Origin: Candidatus Nitrosopumilus limneticus
GTDB taxonomy: Archaea; Thermoproteota; Nitrososphaeria; Nitrososphaerales; Nitrosopumilaceae
Reading direction: 5' to 3'
Assembly: GCA_022117465.1 (NCBI GenBank)
Contig: JAHCGZ010000004.1
Span: forward strand, 79,355 to 143,354
DNA length: 64,000 nucleotides
The notes beneath the pieces are model-generated. The model saw only the letters and a list, made by a program, of their open reading frames with translations. It was not told the DNA's origin and did no database searches. Of this stretch, positions 25,911 through 27,377 are shown piece after piece. Each line of letters starts with the position of its first letter. Positions within the stretch are counted from its first letter, which is position 1. A program made the position numbers and the translations under genes.

Positions 25911-26543
25911 ATGAATTATATTCAAAAAATTGATCAAATAATTGAAGAACGAAGCTTATTGAAACACCCATTTTATCAAATGTGGTCAGATGGAAAATTA
26001 ACTCAGGAGTCTTTAGCTGGATATTCAAAAGAATATTTTCAACTTGTAAAAACAGTTCCTGAATTTATGACACCAATTATTCAACAAGCACCTAATTCTG
26101 TAATTACTGAATTAGTTGAAAATCAACAAGAAGAATCTGAACATATTAAACCTTGGATCAACTTTGCAGGTGAACTTGGTATTTCTGAGGATGAATTAAT
26201 TCGATATTCTGGATTAGATAAAACACAAAAAGCAGTTTCTGATTTGTTTGAATTGATGAATACTTTTGATGGTGGTGCATGCGCAATGTATGCATTTGAA
26301 AAAGAAATCCCAAAAATTAGCCAAACAAAATTAGATGGACTATCTGAATTTTATCAAATAACAAATGATAAGGCAACACAATACTTTAAGCTCCATACTG
26401 AAGCTGATATTAGGCATACAGCATCTTGGAGAAATATATTGGAAAAATCAAATGCTGATACAAATGACTTGATTCAAATTGCTGAGAAATCTATTTCAGC
26501 ACAAAATTTGTTACTTGATAGTTGTTATGATGAATACTGTTAA
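25911..26543 (+). CDS. TenA/PqqC-fold CADD-like protein (candidate pABA synthase)
   Basis: HPFYQMWSDGKLTQESLAGYSKEYFQLVKTVP and LHTEADIRHTASW resemble the CADD (CT610) family. Confidence 0.8.
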   Translation: MNYIQKIDQIIEERSLLKHPFYQMWSDGKLTQESLAGYSKEYFQLVKTVPEFMTPIIQQAPNSVITELVENQQEESEHIKPWINFAGELGISEDELIRYSGLDKTQKAVSDLFELMNTFDGGACAMYAFEKEIPKISQTKLDGLSEFYQITNDKATQYFKLHTEADIRHTASWRNILEKSNADTNDLIQIAEKSISAQNLLLDSCYDEYC

Positions 26544-26584: not shown

Positions 26585-26658
26585 GGGCCCGTAACTCAGC
26601 CTGGTAGAGTAACCGGCTCATAACCGGTGAGCCAAGGGATCGAAGCCCTTCGGGCCCA
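26585..26658 (+). tRNA. tRNA with CAT anticodon (elongator Met or Ile2), no CCA encoded
   Basis: GGGCCCG...ACCGGCTCATAACCGGT...AAGGGATCGAAGCCCTT...CGGGCCCA. Confidence 0.93.
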
Positions 26659-26699
26659 TTATTTTCAATTAGTTTTAAAATGAGTCTATGCAAAAATTA

Positions 26700-26768
26700 C
26701 TGGCTGCAATGAAGAATCAGAGTTATATCTGAAATTAATGATTGGAAGGCATTTGTCTGAGCTGCCAG
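26700..26768 (+). ncRNA. Candidate C/D-box guide sRNA
   Basis: Terminal stem CTGGCtGC/GCtGCCAG; C-like ATGAAGA (26709-26715), D' CTGA (26729-26732), C' ATGATTG (26738-26744), D CTGA (26757-26760); 13-nt and 12-nt guide spacers. Confidence 0.6.
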
Positions 26769-26771
26769 ACT

Positions 26772-27377
26772 TTAGTTACTGATTTGTTTTTTTACTTTAT
26801 CTAGAATTACTACGTCAATCATTTTTTGTTCATACAATATTTCTGTAATCTGTAATATGTTTAGAATTGAATGCAATTTTACTCCAAGTTCTGCAAGAGA
26901 TTCATCTGCACCCTCCATTCTATCTACTATTACATATGCATCTTTTACTTTAACATTAACTTCTGTCAGTGATTTTATTGCATTAACAATTGAACCACCA
27001 GTAGTTGCTACATCATCTATCATTACAACTTTCATTCCATTGTGAATTTTTCCTTCAACTGATTTTGAAGTTCCATAATCCTTTGGTTTACTTCTAACAT
27101 AGACTAGAGGTTTTATTACTTCAAATGCTAATGCTGATGCAATTACTAATCCTCCTGTTGGAACTGATACAATACTTTCAAAATTTTCTAATCCAATATC
27201 TTTAGTAATTTGATTTTCTAGATATTTTACCATCATTCTAAATTCATGAGGATAACTTGGAACTAATCTTAAATCTACATAATATGAACTACTTTTTCCA
27301 CTGGCTAGTGTAAAATCTCCAAATTTTATTATCTCTTTTTGATGTAAAAAGGTCACAAATTCTTTCACAAACTCCAT
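26772..27377 (-). CDS. pyrE: Orotate phosphoribosyltransferase
   Basis: PRPP motif VVMIDDVATTGGSI; YYVDLRLVPSYP. Confidence 0.93.
   Translation of the reverse strand: MEFVKEFVTFLHQKEIIKFGDFTLASGKSSSYYVDLRLVPSYPHEFRMMVKYLENQITKDIGLENFESIVSVPTGGLVIASALAFEVIKPLVYVRSKPKDYGTSKSVEGKIHNGMKVVMIDDVATTGGSIVNAIKSLTEVNVKVKDAYVIVDRMEGADESLAELGVKLHSILNILQITEILYEQKMIDVVILDKVKKQISN

Follow-up and report, generated by a model that had tools for sequence, protein, structure and literature searches.

Surveys of archaeal box C/D sRNAs found few methylation sites common to species and none common to all seven studied, and many of the common sites have been suggested to be convergent (PMC7994747, PMC4644070). Helices 69 and 71 (H69 and H71) are archaeal methylation hotspots, with a high predicted methylation density around A1912 in hyperthermophiles (PMC4644070), and a TATA-like motif is said to precede only about 20% of the studied archaeal C/D genes (PMC7994747). 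In eukaryotes, the corresponding marks are set by separate RNAs. Yeast snR13 and human SNORD15 (U15A/B, RF00067) guide Am2281 and Am3764, respectively, and the human RNA modifies the A homologous to A1938 of E. coli (PMC8817022); yeast snR63 and human U46 guide Am2256 and Am3739 in H69. No published catalogue of Nitrosopumilus C/D sRNAs was found in the open-access literature.

The element described here occupies positions 26700–26768 (+) of the window, i.e., the whole 64,000-nucleotide stretch of DNA analysed, and consists of 69 bases in the order C/D′/C′/D inside a terminal stem: CTGGCTGC-A-ATGAAGA-ATCAGAGTTATAT-CTGA-AATTA-ATGATTG-GAAGGCATTTGT-CTGA-GCTGCCAG. It resembles the archaeal double-guide box C/D sRNAs in its compactness (≈69 nt), box order, guides of 12–13 nt, short D′–C′ linker, terminal stem and two rRNA targets within 100 nt of each other, located in the known methylation hotspot H68–71 (PMC4644070). 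Unlike the surveyed archaeal sRNAs, it is kept throughout its class and also in further lineages of the phylum, and it has a TATA box of its own (PMC7994747, PMC4644070). The element is an addition to a known kind of RNA, unusually deeply conserved. Every feature that defines archaeal double-guide C/D sRNAs and can be checked in sequence is present, and there is little doubt that this ammonia-oxidising-type archaeon has a genuine small RNA gene here.

The 5′ strand of the terminal stem, CTGGCTGC (26700–26707), pairs with the 3′ strand, GCTGCCAG (26761–26768), over eight positions. Box C is AUGAAGA (26709–26715), a variant of RUGAUGA, and is followed by the D′ guide region (26716–26728, with its core TCAGAGTTA at 26717–26725) and box D′, CUGA (26729–26732), which is kept as CUGA or a near variant in related loci. 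After a linker of 5 nt comes box C′, AUGAUUG (26738–26744), in whose RUGA core the UG is invariant and the A nearly so, then the D guide region (26745–26756, core AAGGCATTTG at 26746–26755) and box D, CUGA (26757–26760), recognised by motif and alignment. This complete unit, which we take as the mature RNA including its terminal stem, matches the covariance model with 89.3 bits (E = 6e-22) and is present in a single copy in the genome. The initial annotation had proposed a C/D-box guide sRNA here, with one T-T mismatch in the stem, spacings of 13 nt (C–D′), 5 nt (D′–C′) and 12 nt (C′–D) and one C-box mismatch to RUGAUGA; each of these details agrees with the sequence, and the proposal itself is upheld by the motifs, the 23S rRNA targets, conservation and stem covariation.

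Compensatory changes were seen at all eight pairs of the terminal stem among 29 sequences, with a covariation score of 0.499 versus 0.177 after shuffling (slid registers scored no higher than 0.21); the 29-sequence alignment was fitted to the covariance model and so leans towards the stem, and an unfitted alignment of 17 sequences agrees with it. The energy of the RNA folded alone is unremarkable (z = −1.2), which is usual for C/D RNAs. One point that speaks against an sRNA is the C box, which departs from consensus at one position in the family of the host. It proved to be a clade variant: AUGAAGA is constant through the genus and found in the host's family, and RUGAUGA is present in several more distant lineages. 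The change makes the 3b–3n pair of the k-turn A-U instead of U-U, and one sequence has G-C at this place. A Watson–Crick 3b–3n pair is reported to block folding in metal ions alone (PMC4382518); an A-U pair there would fit an RNA that is folded by L7Ae.

Both guides pair with one stretch of 34 nt in the organism's own 23S rRNA, laid out as TAACTCTGA CTCTCTTAAGGTAGC CAAATGCCTT, which corresponds to helix 69 plus the first part of helix 71. The D′ guide TCAGAGTTA forms 9 contiguous Watson–Crick pairs with TAACTCTGA in helix 69 and the D guide AAGGCATTTG forms 10 with CAAATGCCTT in helix 71; the next-best complementarities in 23S rRNA are only 6 and 7 bp, respectively. When the two target cores were searched for in this order, the genome yielded a single match, TAACTCTGACTCTCTTAAGGTAGCCAAATGCCTT, which falls within its only 23S rRNA gene. 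Shuffled guides equalled the real duplex length in 6.0% (D′) and 0.7% (D) of trials, counted before any demand that both sites adjoin, and shuffles of the whole element, with the boxes left free, produced a pair of matches this long, no more than 100 nt apart, in 79 of 20,000 trials. The 5S rRNA and the tRNA loci tested (with flanks, 30 of 44 tRNA genes) offered complementarity no better than that of 23S rRNA. The earlier expectation of a target in rRNA or tRNA is thus narrowed to helices 69 and 71 of 23S rRNA; the target strings predicted at that stage were slightly too long, since the true duplexes are of 9 and 10 bp.

Predicted methylation sites were assigned by the N+5 rule, i.e., the nucleotide opposite the fifth base upstream of a D-type box is the site of 2′-O-methylation, and this nucleotide is Watson–Crick paired for both guides in this genome. 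For the D guide it is the A preceding U in CAAAU of 23S rRNA, and this guide should direct 2′-O-methylation of A1938 (E. coli numbering). We take A1938 to be yeast A2281, and the second A of UAAC to be yeast A2256 and A1913; the mapping among E. coli, yeast and host rRNA was made by counting along the sequence rather than by full alignment. In yeast, Am2256 and Am2281 are 25 nt apart and m5C2278 lies three nucleotides before A2281 (PMC5199042), and both the spacing and the m5C position fit the host 23S rRNA under this assignment. The D′ guide should direct methylation of A1913 in most lineages and of A1912 in the host's own family, because one extra nucleotide precedes box D′ in the latter. 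Counted by eye, 3 nt separate AGTTA from D′ in all 63 same-family genomes matched (mostly TAT-CTGA); among the 21 matches from outside the class, the gap is 2 nt in 20 (e.g., TT-CTGA). An exception is L030, from a genome placed in the same genus and absent from the exact-core matches, which has AC-ATGA with 2 nt. Under strict N+5, the 2-nt form points to A1913 and the 3-nt form, present in this window, to A1912. Since the D′ register varies by 1 nt among lineages, the D′ target nucleotide is uncertain.

The genome encodes fibrillarin, an adjoining Nop5 and two genes of the L7Ae family. With these components, the element very probably acts as an archaeal box C/D sRNA, transcribed independently, that brings fibrillarin to a pair of sites in domain IV of the host's own 23S rRNA, ≈25 nt from each other. 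The BRE/TATA box of the element itself would set the start of transcription at, or close to, the first terminal-stem base. The stem and boxes C and D would then form a k-turn and C′/D′ a k-loop, both bound by L7Ae, and Nop5 and fibrillarin would join the L7Ae-bound RNA. As the D′ guide pairs with TAACTCTGA in helix 69 and the D guide with CAAATGCCTT in helix 71, fibrillarin would 2′-O-methylate A1938 (D) and A1912 (D′, in the host's family; A1913 in most other lineages). The simultaneous hold on both targets may also aid the folding of this subunit-interface region.

Such a folding role could be the main one, i.e., the C/D sRNP would be chiefly an rRNA chaperone for helices 69–71, with methylation at D only, or none at D′. 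Double-guide chaperoning has been proposed for archaeal C/D sRNAs (PMC4644070), and several lineages have a degenerate D′ box (ATGA, CGGA, AGGA), in addition to the variable D′ register. Against this stand the pairing of the N+5 nucleotide in both guides, noted above, and the almost full methylation of the homologous yeast Am2256, Am2280 and Am2281 (PMC5199042), and we consider a predominantly chaperoning RNA unlikely. An RNA that guides methylation at both sites remains our preferred reading, and the element probably brings about ribose methylation of the sort that the two yeast snoRNAs direct at equivalent spots. Unlike snR13 and SNORD15, which act on the D site alone as separate RNAs, one RNA here also covers the H69 site; and unlike snR63 and U46, strict N+5 in the host's family points one nucleotide 5′, to A1912.

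Of the 213 good genomes in the class, 205 carry the element according to a covariance model built from 17 sequences, nearly always in one copy; counted over all 300 class genomes, the model gave matches in 269. More weakly, it matched 202 of the 398 genomes of a phylum sample, where out-of-class matches differ widely in strength, some strong and some weak (E from about 1e-17 to 1e-4). Most of the out-of-class matches inspected (n = 20) keep both guides and some have one exact guide only; in L130, the D′ guide is lacking. The outer limit of the distribution is uncertain because of these outer matches with a single exact guide. A search independent of the model found both exact cores, in the same order, in 90 of the 398 genomes of the phylum sample, including 21 that do not belong to the class; the reversed-pattern control over the same 398 genomes gave no match. 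A stricter pattern run over 84,980 named species genomes returned 18 hits, all archaeal and mostly in Thaumarchaeota/Nitrososphaeria/Aigarchaeota records; the variant guide TCATAGTTA, presumably the one expected for eukaryote-like H69 sequences, had no match in the named genomes. A DNA search of 61 relatives followed the element through the genus and into other families, sometimes apart from the tRNA, and in the alignment there is little or no variation in guides and boxes, in contrast to the linkers and flanks. The initial annotation had named conservation in sister genomes as a check; for boxes, guides and stem it holds there and far beyond.

Some lineages depart from this pattern. At four loci (L127, L128, L135 and L138), the D′ guide reads TCAAAGTTA in place of TCAGAGTTA. 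In the genomes G438, G087 and G272, the 23S rRNA still reads TAACTCTGA, so that a D′ guide of the TCAAAGTTA type retains a mismatch. In L160, L161 and L170 (genomes G087, G272 and G221), unrelated sequence precedes the helix 71 target in 23S rRNA, and two of the three have their helix 69 exon ≈800 nt further upstream, an arrangement that suggests an rRNA intron inserted between the guide targets.

A further-reaching history, which we put forward tentatively and at somewhat less than even chances, would be that of an ancient double guide, inherited vertically since early in the archaeal phylum, in which one RNA makes both the helix 69 and the helix 71 methylation, tasks divided in yeast between snR63 and snR13; a 1-nt insertion before D′ in the host's own family would have moved the helix 69 mark from A1913 to A1912.

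The neighbourhood of the element is that given by the initial annotation, between a CAU tRNA and pyrE. The tRNA with CAU anticodon is at 26585–26658, and the element starts 41 nt after it; the convergent downstream ORF (26772–27377, minus strand) has a phosphoribosyltransferase domain, consistent with pyrE, and its stop is 3 nt past the element. Further upstream, the ORF at 25911–26543 matches the Haem_oxygenas_2 and TENA_THI-4 (PqqC-like) families. This tight spacing, together with a terminator scan that gives one stem-plus-T site at the 3′ end of the element, would suit a by-product of its neighbours, be it a tRNA 3′ trailer, the 3′ UTR or terminator hairpin of pyrE, or an antisense regulator of pyrE. 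However, the genes adjoining the element vary between lineages, several related genomes carry it separate from this tRNA, and in other families the flanks are unrelated, yet guides, boxes and promoter persist. A by-product is contradicted by these independent flanks and is very improbable.

The promoter element, AATTAG TTTTAAAA (26667–26680, +), has its TATA box, TTTTAAAA, at 26673–26680, between the tRNA and the sRNA. The A+T profile upstream of 47 diverse loci shows a common A+T block at −27 to −21 (91–98% at −26 to −23), preceded by an A-rich pair at −31/−30, which together match an archaeal BRE/TATA in both position and form if transcription begins with the first stem base. Motif and conservation suggest that the sRNA has its own promoter, and because a TATA box lies 21–27 nt upstream in diverse lineages, the element would be its own gene and not a by-product of the tRNA or pyrE; the conserved TATA box also lends indirect support to its transcription as a stable small RNA. 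A sigma-70 promoter scan was set aside as irrelevant to archaea.

A chance arrangement of C/D-like motifs, conceivable in AT-rich DNA, where short degenerate boxes abound, is refuted by class-wide conservation with covariation and by a scan of both strands of the whole window for a C-D′-C′-D architecture with stem, in which 26700–26768 was the sole match against 0.04 hits per dinucleotide-shuffled window (100 shuffles) and no shuffled window (0/100) gave a hit in which both guides could pair with rRNA, so that its probability is negligible.

No Rfam family scored above threshold for the element. The sub-threshold matches are all C/D snoRNAs, including SNORD15 (RF00067) over the guide, with 18.8 bits against a gathering score of 75 bits, much too low to place the element in that family; this weak match could come from a common target as readily as from common descent, and no homology is claimed. 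The element would be usable as a new Rfam family. A guide RNA for the subunit interface whose two guides, promoter and covarying stem are retained class-wide, and less fully beyond, offers a concrete and cheap test for an archaeal counterpart of the H69/H71 ribose methylations of yeast and human, and the natural one-nucleotide shift before D′ is a means to test the N+5 rule at this box. As a minor observation from the target side, positions 1–125 of L042, at the start of that locus, hold three tandem copies of a unit of ≈40 bases (about AACAATGCATAGCTTACGCTATGTGTGATTTAAAATGAAATC) flanking the 23S gene.
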